In this document: piece by piece, positions 6,385-15,566 of the stretch | Layout: each line of letters starts with the position of its first letter | Numbering within the stretch: the first letter of the stretch is position 1 | IMG/VR virus record: IMGVR_UViG_3300021077_000075 | Coordinates: 1 to 31,655 of that record | Length of the DNA stretch: 31,655 nucleotides | Source: a virus | Direction: 5' to 3' (one strand) | Position numbers and translations under genes: made by a program | The notes under the pieces: generated by a model | Databases searched by the model: none | Seen by the model: only the letters and a program-made list of their open reading frames with translations | Told to the model about the DNA's origin: nothing

Positions 6385-6413
6385 ATTATCTCATATCCTG
6401 ATAAACTTGTCAA
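6385..6413 (-). promoter_or_regulatory. strong leftward promoter for the ArdC operon
   Basis: On the minus strand TTGACA (6413-6408) is followed after 17 bp by GATAAT (6390-6385) with an extended-10 TGA just upstream. This is one mismatch from full sigma70 consensus. The bases TTGACAAG at its -35 also occur in the other leftward promoter near 2690. Confidence 0.8.
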
Positions 6414-6437
6414 GCCATTGAAAGACCTATTTTTTTA

Positions 6438-6458
6438 AATGGCTCAACCACGCCGTTT
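6438..6458. repeat. 21-bp direct repeat, copy A
   Basis: This 21-mer containing GGCTCAACCACGCCG is repeated exactly at 6994-7014. In both places the CCACGCCGTTT core can fold with a following GTGG. Copy A is followed by GGGGTTTTT and could act as a weak rightward terminator. Confidence 0.9.
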
Positions 6459-6562: not shown

Positions 6563-6610
6563 TTGAAACGGGATAATTGGGATCACTTGAAACGGGATAA
6601 TTGGGATCAC
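6563..6610. repeat. 24-bp perfect tandem duplication
   Basis: Positions 6563-6586 and 6587-6610 are identical and head-to-tail, with core GAAACGGGATAATTGGGATC. A related 13-bp element, TTTTGGGGAGGTT, occurs just upstream (6551-6563) and again at 6680-6692. Iteron-like. Confidence 0.9.
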
Positions 6611-6981: not shown

Positions 6982-7064
6982 GCCATTGTTGCGAATGGCT
7001 CAACCACGCCGTTTGTGGTTAATTGTTCGATGTTCCTCGAACTTCGCCAAATATACGTTTGGCG
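6982..7064. repeat. string of four consecutive perfect hairpins
   Basis: H1 GCCATT-6-AATGGC (6982-6999), H2 AACCAC-7-GTGGTT (7002-7020), H3 GTTCGA-6-TCGAAC (7025-7042), H4 CGCCAAA-6-TTTGGCG (7045-7064). Stems are 6-7 bp, loops 6-7 nt and spacers 2, 4 and 2 nt. The four stems differ in sequence, so this is conserved structure rather than a copied repeat. H1 and H2 overlap copy B of the 21-bp repeat. Confidence 0.85.
6994..7014. repeat. 21-bp direct repeat, copy B
   Basis: Exact second copy of 6438-6458, 556 bp to the right, lying across hairpins H1 and H2. The similarity stops sharply at both ends. The region between the copies holds the iterons. Confidence 0.9.
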
Positions 7065-7544: not shown

Positions 7545-7597
7545 AGATAGGGGGTAACCCTTACTGTTAGATTGGTCAATTCTACCAACTCGAAAAG

Positions 7598-7736
7598 TTG
7601 ACAAAATTGTCAATTTTTTGTGGTGTCATTTTCCAGGGGCTACTTTGGCTTTACACCGCCATTCTCTAAAAAAAAGTTGACAAAATTGTCAATAAAAGTT
7701 GACAAAATTGTCAATAAAAGTTGACAAAATTGTCAA
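7598..7736. promoter_or_regulatory. four-copy 16-bp operator array, 22-bp phased
   Basis: TTGACAAAATTGTCAA (a perfect 7-2-7 dyad) occurs at 7598-7613, 7677-7692, 7699-7714 and 7721-7736. The last three are exactly 22 bp apart, about two helical turns, within a repeated unit AAAAG + dyad + T. The rightmost copy ends 25 bp before the -35 of the late promoter. Repressor or activator binding with cooperative same-face contacts is the simplest reading; initiator iterons are the alternative. Confidence 0.88.
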
Positions 7737-7761
7737 TTTTTTGGAGGTTGATCCGGGGGGG

Positions 7762-7790
7762 TTGACTTTGGTTTTTTGGTTTTGTATAAT
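7762..7790 (+). promoter_or_regulatory. consensus sigma70 promoter of the rightward unit
   Basis: TTGACT (7762-7767), a 17-bp spacer and a perfect TATAAT (7785-7790). Predicted start near 7797. It faces the structured RNA, the tRNA-like element and the packaging genes, and sits immediately downstream of the operator array. Confidence 0.88.
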
Positions 7791-7796
7791 CGGGTT

Positions 7797-7972
7797 ATCG
7801 AGTCGGATAGGTGTCTTGAGTCCGACAGCCTGATTAACTAGTGGACAATCAATCTGGGGGAAAACTTGTTAGACACACAAGCCCTGGCAAGGATTGTCCG
7901 GCGGAAGTGGTGCTGTCCGGCACGGGCTAAACCCCACAACTTAGGGGAGTGGAAATTAGCACTTGCGGTAAA
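7797..7972 (+). ncRNA. structured leader RNA or small non-coding RNA, family unknown
   Basis: The first 175 nt downstream of the promoter contain no reading frame but fold well by eye: GTCGGA/TCCGAC (7802-7807 with 7821-7826); a perfect 8-bp stem GGACAATC/GATTGTCC (7843-7850 with 7892-7899) enclosing CTTGT-7-ACAAG plus a GGG/CCC extension; GTGC-6-GCAC (7910-7923); and CCCC-8-GGGG (7932-7947). TGTCCGGC is present twice, at 7895 and 7914. It does not show the conserved cores of RNase P RNA, tmRNA or SRP RNA that I know. It runs directly into the tRNA-like element with no terminator between. Confidence 0.6.
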
Positions 7973-8043
7973 GGGGGGCGATCGTCTAGAGGTCTAGGAC
8001 GCGGGTTTAAGCCCGAACGGAGGTTCGAATCCTCCAGACCCCC
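7973..8043 (+). tRNA. tRNA-like element with shortened anticodon arm (possible degenerate tRNA)
   Basis: The D arm (CGTC, loop TAGAGGTCTAG, GACG; 7983-8001) is nearly the loop of bacterial tRNA-Glu, and the T arm (GGAGG-TTCGAAT-CCTCC; 8019-8035) is perfect. The anticodon arm CGGG-TTTAAG-CCCG (8002-8015) is three bases short of the canonical 17, leaving a 6-nt loop without a clear anticodon. The acceptor pairs only through about five G:C pairs (GGGGG with CCCCC), then mismatches. No CCA is encoded (TGG follows). It is therefore either a decayed tRNA or a tRNA mimic that could be an RNase P processing signal for the upstream RNA. Confidence 0.5.
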
Positions 8044-8066
8044 TGGTTAAAAAATGGGAGGAACGA

Positions 8067-8249
8067 GTGAGAAATTTACCGAGGATTTTAAAAGAAAGCC
8101 AAGAAAATACAAGTGCCTATTTGTCTTGTTGTGTTTTTATCCCCGGTCATAGACTATCTACTCCCGATTCGATTTTTGTAAAAATCAGGCGATGGTTCAA
8201 CCGGATGGTTGTTAAAATATTCCGGGTATCATTTAGAGAAGAGAGGTGA
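8067..8249 (+). CDS. small basic protein, 60 aa
   Basis: GTG start at 8067, five bases after GGGAGG. It is the first protein gene after the tRNA-like element. The product is basic, with two cysteines in the middle (Y-L-S-C-C-V-F-I-P-G) and a helical Arg/Val/Phe-rich C-terminus (V-K-I-R-R-W-F-N-R-M-V-V-K-I-F-R) that could lie on a membrane or nucleic acid. Its TGA overlaps a GTG of the next frame. No family recognised. Confidence 0.6.
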   Translation: MRNLPRILKESQENTSAYLSCCVFIPGHRLSTPDSIFVKIRRWFNRMVVKIFRVSFREER

Positions 8250-8257
8250 AGCGATTA

Positions 8258-8590
8258 ATGTCCGAGCAGGATTTTAAAGAACAAATAGAGAATATTATTA
8301 AAAGCAAAAATATTGTGAGTGAGATAATTGGACTGCAATTTATGGAGGTTCCAATAGTCGAATTAATGAGAAAAAAAGTGATTAGGGAGAGAACCGGCCC
8401 TAGGTTGTTTTGTGAAAAATCACCAGTTGGCAGCTATTATAAAAAACTTAGGATGGCTAAAATGCTTACAAAGTTAGCAGTTGCAAGGGGGGTGAGCATT
8501 TCCCCTTTGACTGTGCATAAATTTGAAAACCTAATCCCCGTTTCAGATGAGAACAAAAACAAAATCATAAATTTTCTGGAATCATATTGA
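8258..8590 (+). CDS. possible HTH-type regulator, 110 aa
   Basis: The ATG at 8258 follows AGAGGTGA at 8-nt spacing; a GTG at 8246 overlapping the upstream stop is the alternative. The N-terminal half is helical (F-K-E-Q-I-E-N-I-I-K-S-K-N-I-V). Residues about 65-110 (R-M-A-K-M-L-T-K-L-A-V-A-R-G-V-S-I-S-P-L-T-V-H-K-F-E-N) resemble the second half of an XRE/Cro-type helix-turn-helix: small-residue turn, S-x-x-T-V-x-K-F-E-N recognition helix, then K-N-K-I-I-N-F-L. That match is suggestive, not diagnostic. Its position next to the phased operator array makes it my best candidate for the cognate DNA-binding protein. Confidence 0.6.
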   Translation: MSEQDFKEQIENIIKSKNIVSEIIGLQFMEVPIVELMRKKVIRERTGPRLFCEKSPVGSYYKKLRMAKMLTKLAVARGVSISPLTVHKFENLIPVSDENKNKIINFLESY

Positions 8591-8831: not shown

Positions 8832-9266
8832 ATGCCGGACGATAAAGAAGAAGTAGAACCTATTTATATTCCGTTGCCCGGAGGAGGATTCACTTATCGC
8901 AAGCTCATCGAAAATAAGATTCGCCGGGTAGATGACCCAGACATAGAAGAAAAGGCGCTGGCCGCAGCCAAATCCGAGGATGAGTCTTTAGATGGACTGG
9001 ACGACTTAGAAGATGTTGTGGAGCCTATGGAACTGCTCAATGAAATGCAGTTGGGATTCCGGGATTTATTCAAACGGCTTAAAACTCTGTTGAACAAGGT
9101 AAATTACCAAGGCGCCACAATAAAAGACAAGACCTTCGCCTATCGCTTGTATTTTGAGATATTGGACAAGCTATCAAAGCACAAAGATAAGACCAATACT
9201 GAATCTTCTAAACTATCCGAACAAGAAATAGCAGACAAGGTTATTGAGAGTATGAAAAATCTTTAA
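8832..9266 (+). CDS. putative terminase small subunit
   Basis: 144 aa, immediately upstream of the large terminase (2-nt gap). The N-terminus has short strands (I-Y-I-P-L-P-G-G-G-F), the middle is acidic, and the C-terminal two thirds are helical (L-L-N-E-M-Q-L-G-F-R-D-L-F-K-R-L-K-T-L-L, T-F-A-Y-R-L-Y-F-E-I-L-D-K-L). The call rests on position, size and acidic/helical composition; there is no clear N-terminal HTH. TerS recognises the packaging site and feeds the genome to TerL. The ribosome binding site is weak, so translation probably depends on the upstream gene. Confidence 0.55.
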   Translation: MPDDKEEVEPIYIPLPGGGFTYRKLIENKIRRVDDPDIEEKALAAAKSEDESLDGLDDLEDVVEPMELLNEMQLGFRDLFKRLKTLLNKVNYQGATIKDKTFAYRLYFEILDKLSKHKDKTNTESSKLSEQEIADKVIESMKNL

Positions 9267-9268
9267 TA

Positions 9269-10945
9269 ATGAATAAAGAAGAGGCTCTTGGTAAACTAAA
9301 ATCAATTTTTTCTACTCCTCCGGCGATTCATAAGAGATATACTGAACCGGAGTGGATGATTGATTTTGATTCCAACATCACTAAACGGGTTGAGGATTTG
9401 GTTAACTGCCAGCTTCATTTTGAATATTTTCTCACCGGCTGGTTTAAGACGGTTGACGAACACGAACCTAACAAGGCAGCCAAGTTAATTCCGTATAAGG
9501 ACTACCTGGTGGTTTTGTCAAGAATATTTTCGGCTAAAGACGAAGAAGGAAAGCCGTTATTCCCTAAGATTGTGGTTATCAAGTCCAGGCAGATCATGGT
9601 TTCCTGGTTAATGATGGCATATTTAACCTGGGATGCCCTTTATACCCAGGGTAGAAAGCATATCGTTCAGAGTGAATCGGCCACCTCAAGCGATGCGCTT
9701 TTAAAACGGGCATACAATTCTTACCAGAACTTAAGTAGCCATATTCGGCGCGGAAGATTCCTAAACCCAGACCGGGCAAGAAAAGATGTCGAGTTGATGG
9801 GGTTAAAAATGTATAATCGGATGATTTTTACCCGCCCCGAAATTCCGGCTTGTGAGTTAATCGGCTTAACCAAAGGTTCGGATGCAATTCAACAATATAC
9901 CGCTTCGATTGCCTATGAGGACGAATTTCAAAAACAGCGCAAGAAGGCTGGTGGGGGTGGTTGCTATTCTATTATTGAGGCCGTATCCCCCGCCATTGAT
10001 GGAGGCGGTCAATTAATTTGCACGGGAACCGTTCCCGATGTTCCTAATGATGAATGGGAGAAAATTGCCAGATATTACAAGGACAGGCACGAAGCTATTC
10101 CCTTGATTGAGGGAATGTTTGCCTGGGTAAATGATGATGGTATTTTAGTAATCCAGGTTCACTACTCTGCCGATCCGGCCAAGAATCCAAAAACCAAAGA
10201 AGGCGCTGCGTGGTTGCTTAAAAATAAACCTGGGCCGGGAGCAAGCCAGGAAGAAAAAGACGCATGGGAAAGACAGAGAGAAATTAACTGGACGGCCAGA
10301 ACCGTGGGGGTTAAGTTCCCTGAGTTTCAGCAGTTTTACGGTGATTATGTTGATCCGGTGGTGGAATATGCGCCGGCTTATCCCGTAATTTGTGGGTGGG
10401 ATTTTGGTTTAAGCCCAAGTTCCAATGTGTGTATAGCCTCGCAGTTAATACCTTATGGGGATATTGTGATTTTACAGATTATTGATTCATGGATTCAGGA
10501 GGGGGTAAGGAGCGAAACATTTATAGACCGGGTTTTACTGGAGAGGTCTAAGAAGTATTTTCCGATAAACTCAAATTTAAAGAAGAAGTTTTATGATTTT
10601 ATAGACAGTAGTTCAAGCTATTACGACCGGCGCGGAGATAATGAGTATATTATTTTTTGCAAAAGGAAACTTTATCCGAGTTACCACAAGATGTATGATC
10701 CCGAGAAAGAGGGGAGCGTCCGCAAGGTCTTGGAGAAAAAGCAGGTTTGGTTAAAAATCCATCCCCGGAATAATATCCTAATCGAGGCGCTTGCGAAGCG
10801 GGTAATAAACAAGAACGGCAAGATTTTTGCTCATAATCCTTGGAATGACGCTTTCGACGGGTTCTGTTATATTTTGGGCGGGGTGTTCGACTTCGAGCGC
10901 AAAATCAATCCGCAATATTTAAAAACCGAATTGGAAAATTATTGA
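9269..10945 (+). CDS. terL: terminase large subunit (packaging ATPase/nuclease)
   Basis: 558 aa, full length. ATPase domain: deviant Walker A at 105-113 (K-S-R-Q-I-M-V-S-W), Walker B/catalytic acid Y-E-D-E at 216-219, and coupling motif C-T-G-T at 251-254. Nuclease domain of RNase H fold: D378 in G-W-D-F-G-L-S-P-S, D446 in F-I-D-S-S, and D527/D530 in N-D-A-F-D-G near the end. It translocates DNA into the prohead through the portal and cuts concatemers. The C-terminal basic tail is short. A 96-bp gap holding the portal promoter follows, so packaging genes and structural genes can be expressed separately. Confidence 0.95.
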   Translation: MNKEEALGKLKSIFSTPPAIHKRYTEPEWMIDFDSNITKRVEDLVNCQLHFEYFLTGWFKTVDEHEPNKAAKLIPYKDYLVVLSRIFSAKDEEGKPLFPKIVVIKSRQIMVSWLMMAYLTWDALYTQGRKHIVQSESATSSDALLKRAYNSYQNLSSHIRRGRFLNPDRARKDVELMGLKMYNRMIFTRPEIPACELIGLTKGSDAIQQYTASIAYEDEFQKQRKKAGGGGCYSIIEAVSPAIDGGGQLICTGTVPDVPNDEWEKIARYYKDRHEAIPLIEGMFAWVNDDGILVIQVHYSADPAKNPKTKEGAAWLLKNKPGPGASQEEKDAWERQREINWTARTVGVKFPEFQQFYGDYVDPVVEYAPAYPVICGWDFGLSPSSNVCIASQLIPYGDIVILQIIDSWIQEGVRSETFIDRVLLERSKKYFPINSNLKKKFYDFIDSSSSYYDRRGDNEYIIFCKRKLYPSYHKMYDPEKEGSVRKVLEKKQVWLKIHPRNNILIEALAKRVINKNGKIFAHNPWNDAFDGFCYILGGVFDFERKINPQYLKTELENY

Positions 10946-10953
10946 TATCACCA

Positions 10954-10983
10954 TTGACTTTAAAATGAAATTCGTGGTATAAT
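10954..10983 (+). promoter_or_regulatory. internal promoter upstream of portal
   Basis: TTGACT (10954-10959), an 18-bp spacer and a perfect TATAAT (10978-10983) preceded by GTGG. Predicted start near 10990, exactly where the 20-bp palindrome begins. Confidence 0.85.
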
Positions 10984-10989
10984 ATAAAC

Positions 10990-11009
10990 ATTGTGAAATG
11001 TTTCACAAT
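10990..11009. promoter_or_regulatory. 20-bp perfect palindrome, operator copy 2
   Basis: ATTGTGAAA-TG-TTTCACAAT is the same dyad as at 2708-2727, differing only in the two central bases. It covers about +1 to +20 of the portal promoter, a position where bound protein would block initiation. Confidence 0.85.
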
Positions 11010-11041: not shown

Positions 11042-12847
11042 TTGAAAATAGACCTTAACGAATCAAAGTATATCGTTGCAAGGGTTCGGAAACATGATTC
11101 CTGGGTAGCCACAAAAAAAGCCAGGTTTCAAAAGGTTGATCAGTATTATAAAGGGGACGAGAGCAAGGCCCGCAGGTTTAAAGACCTGGGTTCTTATAGC
11201 TCTAAAATTTTCTTCAATGTCGGGCGTGAAATAGTCGAGGCTTATTATCCCCGCTACATTGGAGATTTTTTTAATGTTGTGCCGGGGGAAAGTTTCATCA
11301 AGGTTTATCCCTCCGAAGAAAACACTCCAGAAGCCGTCAATGCCGCTAAAGAAATAGAATACTGGCTTTTTTACCGCCTGGAAAGCATGAAGTTCCTCAT
11401 GCGTCTTTATGACCCGTCCAAGTGGGTTTTGATGTATGGGATGGTGGCCGGGATTGTAAGCCGGATGGAGTCGGTAAAAAACAGCAATAAGATTTTAGAT
11501 AAATTCCCGGTATTCCGGGGCATTCATCCGGGCAAGTATAGCATTGACGACGGAGCAGAGTTTAAGGATGATGCTATCGATGAGTGCCGGTATTTTAATT
11601 TATCTCTTTTGGAATTAACCAGCCTGGCTCAAGACCCAAGATTTGCTGATGATTTCGACCCGGCAGTTATTTCCGACCTTCGCCGGGTGTTTGAACAGTC
11701 GGCAGAAAACACCATTGAAAGAAATATCCAGATTTGTGAATGGTGGGGCAAACTGTCTGATCGCGATGAAAAGGGAAAGAAGTCCGGTGGTTCACAGATT
11801 TATCAGGCCTGGGTGCTAAAAAACAAAATAAGCGGTTCAAAAATATTATTCTTCAAAAAAGACCCATACAAAACCGGGAAATCACCGTTTGTTTTTTCTC
11901 GTTTCGAGAGAAGGCCGGGAACGATGGATGGAGAGGGGATTTTTGAACTTATTTATTCGGCCCAAGATGCCTTGAATGAGATTAAAAATTGTGTCCTAGA
12001 CAGCCTTTACCAGTCGGTTATGGCAAGGACTTTTCACCATCCCGGAGTTTTTCCCGATAATGATAAGTTTTCTCAATGGAGGCCATATCAACTTTGTATG
12101 GTAAGCTCTGGGGAACCGATTAATAACGCGGTTTTCCGCGATGTTCCCTCCAGTTCTCCCGCGATTGGTCAATCAATGCAGATCGCGCAGCAATTAGAGC
12201 AGGGAATCCAGCAGAGAGCTTCAATGTCCGGCTTGGCGATGGGGCAAGCGGCTGGCCCGGGAACTCCCCCCTCGGCAGAAGAAATTCAATCGAGAATGGG
12301 GTCGCTGGCGCAGCAATTTAGTTTTAACTTTAACACCTTCGTCAAGGAATATGTCGGAGAGGCAGCCGAGCAAATATTGATTCAGGACAGGGAAATCGCT
12401 CTTGGTCTTTCTCTTAATGGGGAAAAGCAAAAGATAATGACCGGGTTCAATTCCGATGGCATTCCAGAGTTCCGGGATATTAGCTTAGAGAGCTTGAGGA
12501 CTCCGGTTAAACTTTCGGTAGTGGGGATTGATCCTGGAAAAATTCATACCAAGCAGTTAATGGATTTCTTGCAGCAAAGCATTATGCCTTTTGTTGATAA
12601 AATCAACGAATCTCTTGCACCGCAGGGTAAGGAATTTAATTTTGAAGAACTGTTTGGGTTAATTTGTTCATTCTTCCCATCTGCCGGGAAACTTAATCTT
12701 ATTCGGGAAAAGAAACCTATCACTCCCCCTGAAAGTGCGGATCAGGTTCCCGGTCAACCGGCTGTTGATGTCAATGCGATTCCCCCTGCCGAGCAATTAA
12801 TGCAGGAATCTCCCGGTAAAACCCCGGTAGAGATACAACCACAATAA
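11042..12847 (+). CDS. portal protein (podovirus type)
   Basis: 601 aa, directly after TerL, with the size and organisation of portals of short-tailed phages. The N-terminal part is helix-rich (S-K-Y-I-V-A-R-V-R-K-H-D-S-W). A central beta wing precedes the stem/tunnel region around F-E-L-I-Y-S-A-Q-D-A-L-N-E-I-K-N and the Q-rich helix Q-S-M-Q-I-A-Q-Q-L-E-Q-G-I-Q-Q-R. A Pro-rich tail follows. Portal forms the dodecameric vertex for DNA entry and tail attachment. The start is TTG at 11042, since the next in-frame Met is more than 100 residues in and would remove conserved helices. An out-of-frame ATG at 11038 encodes only M-L-E-N-R-P and stops. Confidence 0.88.
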   Translation: MKIDLNESKYIVARVRKHDSWVATKKARFQKVDQYYKGDESKARRFKDLGSYSSKIFFNVGREIVEAYYPRYIGDFFNVVPGESFIKVYPSEENTPEAVNAAKEIEYWLFYRLESMKFLMRLYDPSKWVLMYGMVAGIVSRMESVKNSNKILDKFPVFRGIHPGKYSIDDGAEFKDDAIDECRYFNLSLLELTSLAQDPRFADDFDPAVISDLRRVFEQSAENTIERNIQICEWWGKLSDRDEKGKKSGGSQIYQAWVLKNKISGSKILFFKKDPYKTGKSPFVFSRFERRPGTMDGEGIFELIYSAQDALNEIKNCVLDSLYQSVMARTFHHPGVFPDNDKFSQWRPYQLCMVSSGEPINNAVFRDVPSSSPAIGQSMQIAQQLEQGIQQRASMSGLAMGQAAGPGTPPSAEEIQSRMGSLAQQFSFNFNTFVKEYVGEAAEQILIQDREIALGLSLNGEKQKIMTGFNSDGIPEFRDISLESLRTPVKLSVVGIDPGKIHTKQLMDFLQQSIMPFVDKINESLAPQGKEFNFEELFGLICSFFPSAGKLNLIREKKPITPPESADQVPGQPAVDVNAIPPAEQLMQESPGKTPVEIQPQ

Positions 12848-14627: not shown

Positions 14628-15566
14628 ATGCCAATAATTAATACTGCGGGATTCGCACTCTACACTGATCCGGCCTGCAAAGCGGCTTTTAACCAGGAAC
14701 AAAGCCTTTCCGATGCAGGAGCGGCCATTAAACAGCTCTATGATGAGCAGGAAACCAAAGAACTGGAATACAAGTATTTTCAGGAAGTCGGGTTCGGTAT
14801 GCCCGGTCAGGTAAATGACGGCCAGCCTCCGATTTTCGATACCATTTATTCCGGCCACGACAAAACCCTGGTTCAGGCGAACTATGGCTTGGGATTCAAG
14901 ATCACCGAGAAAATGCAGATTTTCGCTCGCCTGGGTCAGATTAAAGACCTCACCAAAGGATTGGCTCAACGGATGAAGGATAATGACGGATACCTCTGCA
15001 CCCGGCCCATTAACCTGGGAACCCTGAACGCCGGGGCTGGTGGTATCACCTATGGCGATGGTCAGCCGTTGTTTTCCGCTTCTCACCCTCGGCTTTCGGC
15101 CTCGTTGGGTGAGGCTTGGAGCAATCTTGGAACTGCCGCCACTTTGGACACAACCACTTTCCGGGCGATGAGATTGGCTCTGTTTAACCAGATTTCCGAC
15201 CGTGGATTCAAACTGTGGCAAATGCCGACCTTCCTGATCATCAGCATGAATCTTGTGGATAAAGCCGAAGCGTTACTGCTTAGCCCTCAAGACCCCGGGA
15301 GCAACAACAACGATATGAGTAATATTTTCAAGTCCAATGTGTTCGGGAAAATTATTCCTCTGGTTGATCGTTGGTTGACCAGCACTACCGGCTACACGAT
15401 GGCGGTTTCCAAAGAGGACTGCGGACTGTTCAGAATGATCGGGAAGAAGGCGGATTTGGTAACTTCCGTTCAGAACTCCGCGAGAGTAATCGAGAAAACC
15501 TCCACCGCCTTCTCGGCAGAAGGCGTAAAAAGCCCGCGTGGTTTATACCACAGCGTAGGTGCGTAG
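14628..15566 (+). CDS. major capsid protein, HK97-fold (Mu gpT-like features)
   Basis: 312 aa with AAAGGAG upstream. Residues about 145-155 contain G-D-G-Q-P-L-F-S-A-S-H-P, a loop typical of Mu gpT-like and related HK97-fold major head proteins. The N-terminal arm is helical (D-A-G-A-A-I-K-Q-L-Y-D-E-Q-E-T-K-E-L-E-Y-K). The C-terminal part has axial-domain-like strands (F-G-K-I-I-P-L-V-D-R-W-L-T) and ends G-L-Y-H-S-V-G-A. No long scaffold-delta domain is fused to it, consistent with the separate scaffold-like gene. The strong hairpin after its stop would stabilise the abundant capsid mRNA. Confidence 0.87.
   Translation: MPIINTAGFALYTDPACKAAFNQEQSLSDAGAAIKQLYDEQETKELEYKYFQEVGFGMPGQVNDGQPPIFDTIYSGHDKTLVQANYGLGFKITEKMQIFARLGQIKDLTKGLAQRMKDNDGYLCTRPINLGTLNAGAGGITYGDGQPLFSASHPRLSASLGEAWSNLGTAATLDTTTFRAMRLALFNQISDRGFKLWQMPTFLIISMNLVDKAEALLLSPQDPGSNNNDMSNIFKSNVFGKIIPLVDRWLTSTTGYTMAVSKEDCGLFRMIGKKADLVTSVQNSARVIEKTSTAFSAEGVKSPRGLYHSVGA

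Follow-up and report, generated by a model that had tools for sequence, protein, structure and literature searches.

The window analysed here is the complete 31,655-nt IMG/VR virus record IMGVR_UViG_3300021077_000075, which may itself be a fragment of a phage genome, and it carries, ahead of the packaging genes, a promoter and a tRNA-like element that are both real. The findings support the assignment of segment 7973–8044 as a non-decoding, tRNA-derived element in the leader of the late operon. The explanation that we put first, tentatively and at somewhat below even confidence, is that the region as a whole forms the 5' leader of this operon and that the tRNA-like element most probably acts as a processing module recognized by RNase P and a tRNA 3' nuclease; transcription, the cleavages and the function of the leader are the parts of this explanation that we infer.

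The late promoter and its surroundings

The virus is a tailed phage, with genes for a terminase large subunit (TerL), an SU10-like portal and a major capsid protein (MCP), and its leftward genes include those for ERF, SSB and an ArdC-like protein. The region of interest is located in the approximately 1.8-kb (1.86-kb) intergenic stretch that separates the leftward genes from the late genes, which run rightward, and no open reading frame (ORF) of at least 60 amino acids (aa) overlaps positions 7589–8066. On the + strand, the Shine-Dalgarno sequence GGGAGG (8056–8061), followed by a GTG start (8056–8069 for the two together), begins the ORF (8067–8249) that heads the rightward operon. The second ORF, of 110 aa (8258–8590, + strand), gave a weak helix-turn-helix hint only (HTH_3, E = 0.077, below the cut-off), and no relatives of it were found in viral_contigs. 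The packaging and head genes begin with TerL (9269–10945, + strand; phrog_2, E = 4.6e-9), and the portal (11042–12847) and MCP (14628–15566) are late genes as well. Repeats were noted at several places in the record: approximately 18-nt tandem repeats (CTTTCCGAAAGACGCnCC) at its left end (1–190) and, in the intergenic region, two copies of AATGGCTCAACCACGCCGTTT (6429–6458 and 6985–7014) and an exact 24-bp tandem duplication (6563–6610).

The near-consensus promoter claimed in an earlier note on this DNA was borne out. The sequence TTGACT-17-TATAAT (7762–7790, + strand) matches the consensus at 11 of 12 positions and faces the late genes, with transcription expected to start at about 7797. Such a match is rare: when the mononucleotides of the 1.86-kb intergenic region were shuffled, the chance rate was 0.03 per strand, and in the whole record, on both strands, 11/12 or better is reached at three sites, the other two being located at 6413 (minus strand, directed toward the leftward operon) and at 10954 (plus strand, directed toward the portal gene).

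Upstream of the promoter, the 16-bp palindrome TTGACAAAATTGTCAA occurs in four identical copies (7598–7613, 7677–7692, 7699–7714 and 7721–7736), the last three spaced at 22 bp, with their centres approximately 69, 91 and 113 bp ahead of the predicted transcription start. When reverse-strand matches are included, the match count is 9, a value reached in none of 100 shuffles. Judging from this arrangement, the palindromes are probably the sites of a regulator of the late promoter, and 7762–7790 looks like a regulated late promoter. A degenerate copy of TTGACAAAATTGTCAA (6398–6413) overlaps the −35 box of the leftward promoter, and one protein could act at both types of site, repressing early transcription and acting on late transcription. 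A second palindrome, TTGTGAAAnnTTTCACAA, is found at 2709–2726 and at 10991–11008, the latter just past the 10954 promoter and ahead of the portal gene. A search with an operator-pair pattern returned no matches.

No terminator-like site was detected on the + strand between 7797 and 8394 and, given also the GGGAGG motif at 8056–8061, transcription can enter the late genes; the earlier placement of the tRNA mimic ahead of the packaging genes was correct.

The tRNA-like element and its counterparts in other phages

The element at 7973–8044 (+ strand) resembles a tRNA-Glu with a shortened anticodon arm. Its D-arm, GTCTAGAGGTCTAGGAC (7984–8000), is of the exact tRNA-Glu type, by sequence as well as by alignment, and its T-arm, GGAGG-TTCGAAT-CCTCC (GGAGGTTCGAATCCTCC; 8019–8035), is perfectly paired, so that both arms of the proposed tRNA mimic are present with their conserved loops, as in a functional tRNA. 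The anticodon arm, CGGG-TTTAAG-CCCG (8002–8015), has 4 bp and a 6-nt loop, compared to 5 bp and a 7-nt loop in a functional tRNA, and in place of a 7-bp acceptor, either 4 of 7 pairs form in the canonical register or, in a shifted register, five G-C pairs form between GGGGG (7973–7977) and CCCCC (8039–8043), with mismatches beyond. No CCA is encoded. ARAGORN called no tRNA at the element, and no other tRNA gene was found in the record. The earlier statement that the pairing fits no known RNA family agrees with the covariance-model search of Rfam, in which no family was matched at gathering thresholds; the best match, to tRNA-Sec, was below threshold (E = 0.0014; 28.8 bits, with the cut-off at 47). 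A tmRNA is not supported, given that no Rfam family reached threshold. A covariance model, R1, built from the elements of other phages without 7973–8044, gave the element 52 bits, a score in which only the anticodon hairpin counts as independent evidence, because the members of the model were fetched using the D- and T-arm letters of the element itself.

Nearly as likely as the processing module is a decaying phage tRNA gene, that is, a former tRNA-Glu gene ahead of the terminase genes from which the anticodon loop and some of the acceptor have gone, in which case the leader would be mere untranslated RNA. The weak acceptor, the missing CCA, the rejection by ARAGORN and the lack of any further tRNA in the record are all compatible with decay, whereas the D-arm, the anticodon hairpin and the T-arm do not contain a single broken pair, although random decay should strike these stems, too. 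The location of the element also bears on this alternative. In Streptomyces phage Success, eight tRNAs directly precede the terminase, the same position as that of the window element, and tRNA arrays directly precede the terminase in the L018-type contigs as well. Clusters of tRNA genes before the terminase are ordinary in phages, which makes the location of the window element less special than it looked and fits a decayed remnant. The window element shares with phage tRNA arrays the tRNA-Glu-type D- and T-arms, the position just before the packaging genes and the orientation of the late genes, but differs in being a single element with a shortened anticodon arm and an irregular acceptor, preceded by a 176-nt leader and a near-consensus promoter.

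Shortened elements recur in other viral contigs. A pattern consisting of the D-arm of the element, a short gap and the T-arm, such that the D- and T-loop letters are part of the definition, matched 29 stretches; the window aside, these represent at most 28 distinct ones (L002–L030, including some near-identical sets). They have in common with the window the D-arm letters GTCTAGnGG...AGGAC, the shortened anticodon hairpin, the AC that precedes the T-stem and the TTCGAATC T-loop; however, most of the others have a regular 6–7-bp acceptor, compared to 4 bp, or 5 in the shifted register, in the window, and none has a leader RNA resembling that of the window. In an alignment of 16 elements, the window included, 94% of the cells were paired and compensatory changes were observed in 16 of the 20 pairs; the acceptor, anticodon and T stems covaried, and the covariation score was reached in 0 of 500 shuffles. 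Among 59 tRNA-Glu-type genes fetched independently, with a different pattern, none had a shortened arm; the anticodon-shortened class is thus rare, and its definition depends in part on the search pattern. No description of such a class was found in a literature search that covered mainly open-access papers. The conservation of comparable shortened arms through compensatory changes in other phages is a further point against simple decay.

Many of the collected elements sit within ordinary tRNA arrays. In L014 and L025 (beside a baseplate-hub gene) the element is alone, with no further tRNA called on the stretch examined, and in L011, where a major head gene lies on one side of it and the following ORF on the other, it is the only call made by ARAGORN. 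Seven stretches (L005, L009, L016, L018, L022, L024 and L027) carry tRNA-Glu-like genes whose stems are exactly 5 bp long and whose anticodon loops have 5 nt; other tRNA genes adjoin those in L005, L018, L022, L024 and L027, and ARAGORN labels some of the 5-nt-loop elements His, Glu, Gly or Ser. Tandem tRNA-like bodies that apparently share one outer acceptor stem were observed at L025:3968–4090 (minus strand; GGCTGTG/CGCAGTC) and L030:6047–6190 (AAACCAT/ATGGTTT), and the inner acceptor strands of L030 are able to pair as a hairpin.

Phages unrelated to one another share tRNA-Glu bodies with shortened arms and covarying stems, several of them in arrays together with working tRNAs, which is what would be expected of a non-decoding tRNA maintained for its own sake, for example as a decoy for an anticodon-cutting host nuclease, a tRNA-modifying enzyme or glutamyl-tRNA synthetase. 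For the window we consider this unlikely: with an irregular acceptor and no encoded CCA, charging or stability of the RNA is doubtful, and if the target were an anticodon nuclease, a decoy should have retained the anticodon loop.

Non-coding Y RNAs of bacteria and phages (YrlA; RF02553) mimic the D/T elbow of tRNA in a permuted form, their acceptor being capped and their basal stem binding Ro (PMC8394870). Phage Y RNAs, for example those of Xanthomonas phages beside a TROVE/Ro60 gene, also contain a tRNA-Glu-type D/T module, which would be compatible with a tRNA-mimicking tether of a Ro60-like ring protein in the window. However, the order in YrlA and Y RNAs is T-arm, capped acceptor hairpin, D-arm, whereas the window has the normal order of D-arm, anticodon arm and T-arm; the basal-stem motifs GGTTACTTC and TGTTCCCC are missing at the site, and no TROVE match was obtained among the long window proteins that were scanned (the record may be a fragment). 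On arm order and the missing motifs we reject a Y RNA, leaving it only the slightest probability. Unannotated tandem Y-RNA-like units were detected in the Xanthomonas phages 10KY502B (L162:2240–2835) and Usaquen (L163:2250–2870). These units have the form GGTGGTGnAG...GGTTACTTC...TGTTCCCC, several of them with a permuted tRNA-like module, and directly precede a 439-aa protein that in L162 matches TROVE/Ro60; one L162 unit is annotated as tRNA-Thr. Viral contigs commonly carry tRNA-Glu-like modules in the permuted order of T-arm, capped acceptor hairpin and D-arm (L058, L061, L069, L092, L096, L110, L112, L134, L148 and others of L034–L152). Among the T-to-D adjacencies, 60 of 119 had no T-arm past the D-arm, and the Rfam YrlA model scored below threshold in the permuted-module loci tested.

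The 176-nt leader

The leader RNA (7797–7972, + strand) is 176 nt long and lacks ORFs of 60 aa or longer, in agreement with the approximately 175 nt of non-coding sequence described earlier; the description of this sequence as strongly folded, on the other hand, was an overstatement. The leader alone gave z = −1.8 to −2.2, with 33 of 600 shuffles equally stable, and for the whole of the element described in the earlier note z was −1.5, a stability equalled in 18 of 200 shuffles, so the fold is near chance and only marginally better than that of shuffled sequences. Predicted structures include an outer helix (7797–7800/7966–7969, extendable to 7795/7971), a closing helix of the kind found in 9% of shuffles and in 6% of ordinary tiles of the phage genome, and a hairpin at 7802–7808/7820–7826. 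The sole robust hairpin, TGGACAATC/GATTGTCCG with inner stems (7842–7900), stands out with z = −3.1 for 7843–7899 and a pair probability of approximately 0.97–1.0 in every context tried. The near-chance fold is also in keeping with the decay of a tRNA gene.

No leader homologue was found by BLAST in phages and plasmids, by TerL-based searches for relatives in viral_contigs, genome_contigs and phage records, or by a portal-based search; the MCP search yielded relatives at 26–27% only, none of which extends to the leader region, and sequence-pattern searches with the leader returned unrelated matches only. Because no homologue was found, the leader is not supported as a functional structured RNA beyond the one hairpin. 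Membership in the GOLLD/ROOL class, for which these phage-associated RNAs found near tRNAs had been cited as precedents, is not supported: Rfam gave no match, and 176 nt is far too short, compared to 485 nt (on a 416-position model) for the GOLLD RNA of L122, ROOL being similarly large. That GOLLD RNA (L122:9117–9601) contains a tRNA (9184–9255), and a type-P5 twister ribozyme was found in another viral contig (L107:8807–8865).

In folding predictions for transcripts that end at 7972 or 8043, the leader and the cloverleaf form separate domains (pair probabilities of approximately 0.65–1.0), whereas for transcripts that extend to 8100 or beyond, an alternative pairing between the leader and the anticodon arm is favoured or equal. 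Leader positions 7923–7934 are complementary to the anticodon arm (8002–8015), with 12 bp and one bulge. In put-type antitermination, as in phage HK022, the nascent RNA makes the polymerase resistant to terminators. By analogy, the region might be a cis-acting antitermination or attenuation leader, with the tRNA-like element incidental or serving as a switch that pairs with the leader. The placement directly after a strong late promoter and the predicted flip of the fold as the transcript lengthens would suit such a role, which we nevertheless regard as improbable: pairing of the leader with the anticodon arm is not significant as a switch (91 of 2000 shuffles pair equally well), and between the promoter and the genes there is no terminator-like site that would make antitermination necessary.

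Proposed processing of the late transcript

In the proposed processing pathway, a strong sigma-70-type promoter would fire at about 7797, probably under the control of a regulatory protein with the four TTGACAAAATTGTCAA palindromes as its sites, and the transcript would consist of the 176-nt untranslated leader, the tRNA-Glu-derived element and the late mRNA, in that order. RNase P and RNase Z recognize the D-arm, the T-arm and the acceptor of their substrates. The element, which keeps the D/T elbow but would have no usable anticodon loop, could accordingly be cut by RNase P at its 5' side (approximately 7972/7974) and by a tRNA 3' nuclease at about 8044. The leader would then be freed as a discrete RNA of approximately 176 nt, and the late mRNA would be left with a short 5' end, 11 nt before the Shine-Dalgarno sequence, the predicted accessibility of which after cleavage varies with the length folded.

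The rare promoter facing the late genes, the open read-through, the intact D- and T-arms, the recurrence in other phages of anticodon-shortened elements, some of them isolated from other tRNAs, with a covarying anticodon stem, and the predicted boundary between the leader and cloverleaf domains in RNAs with either of the two expected ends all argue for the processing module. The near-chance fold of the leader, the refolding of longer transcripts, the location of most of the recurrent examples inside tRNA arrays and the rarity of the shortened class argue against it; furthermore, given the poor acceptor, the element may be a weak substrate for RNase P. That RNase P frees the leader at its tRNA-like end, as the earlier note had suggested, is plausible and would be the most economical mechanism. 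The more specific proposal in which RNase P makes the 3' end of a functional phage non-coding leader RNA at a dedicated, non-decoding mimic drawn from a scattered family of tRNA-Glu-derived processing or decoy elements, appears doubtful.

If the element is a processing signal, it would represent the use of tRNA punctuation by a phage to separate an RNA from the late mRNA. The covarying set of tRNA-Glu-like elements with shortened arms suggests that some phage 'tRNAs' serve a purpose other than decoding.
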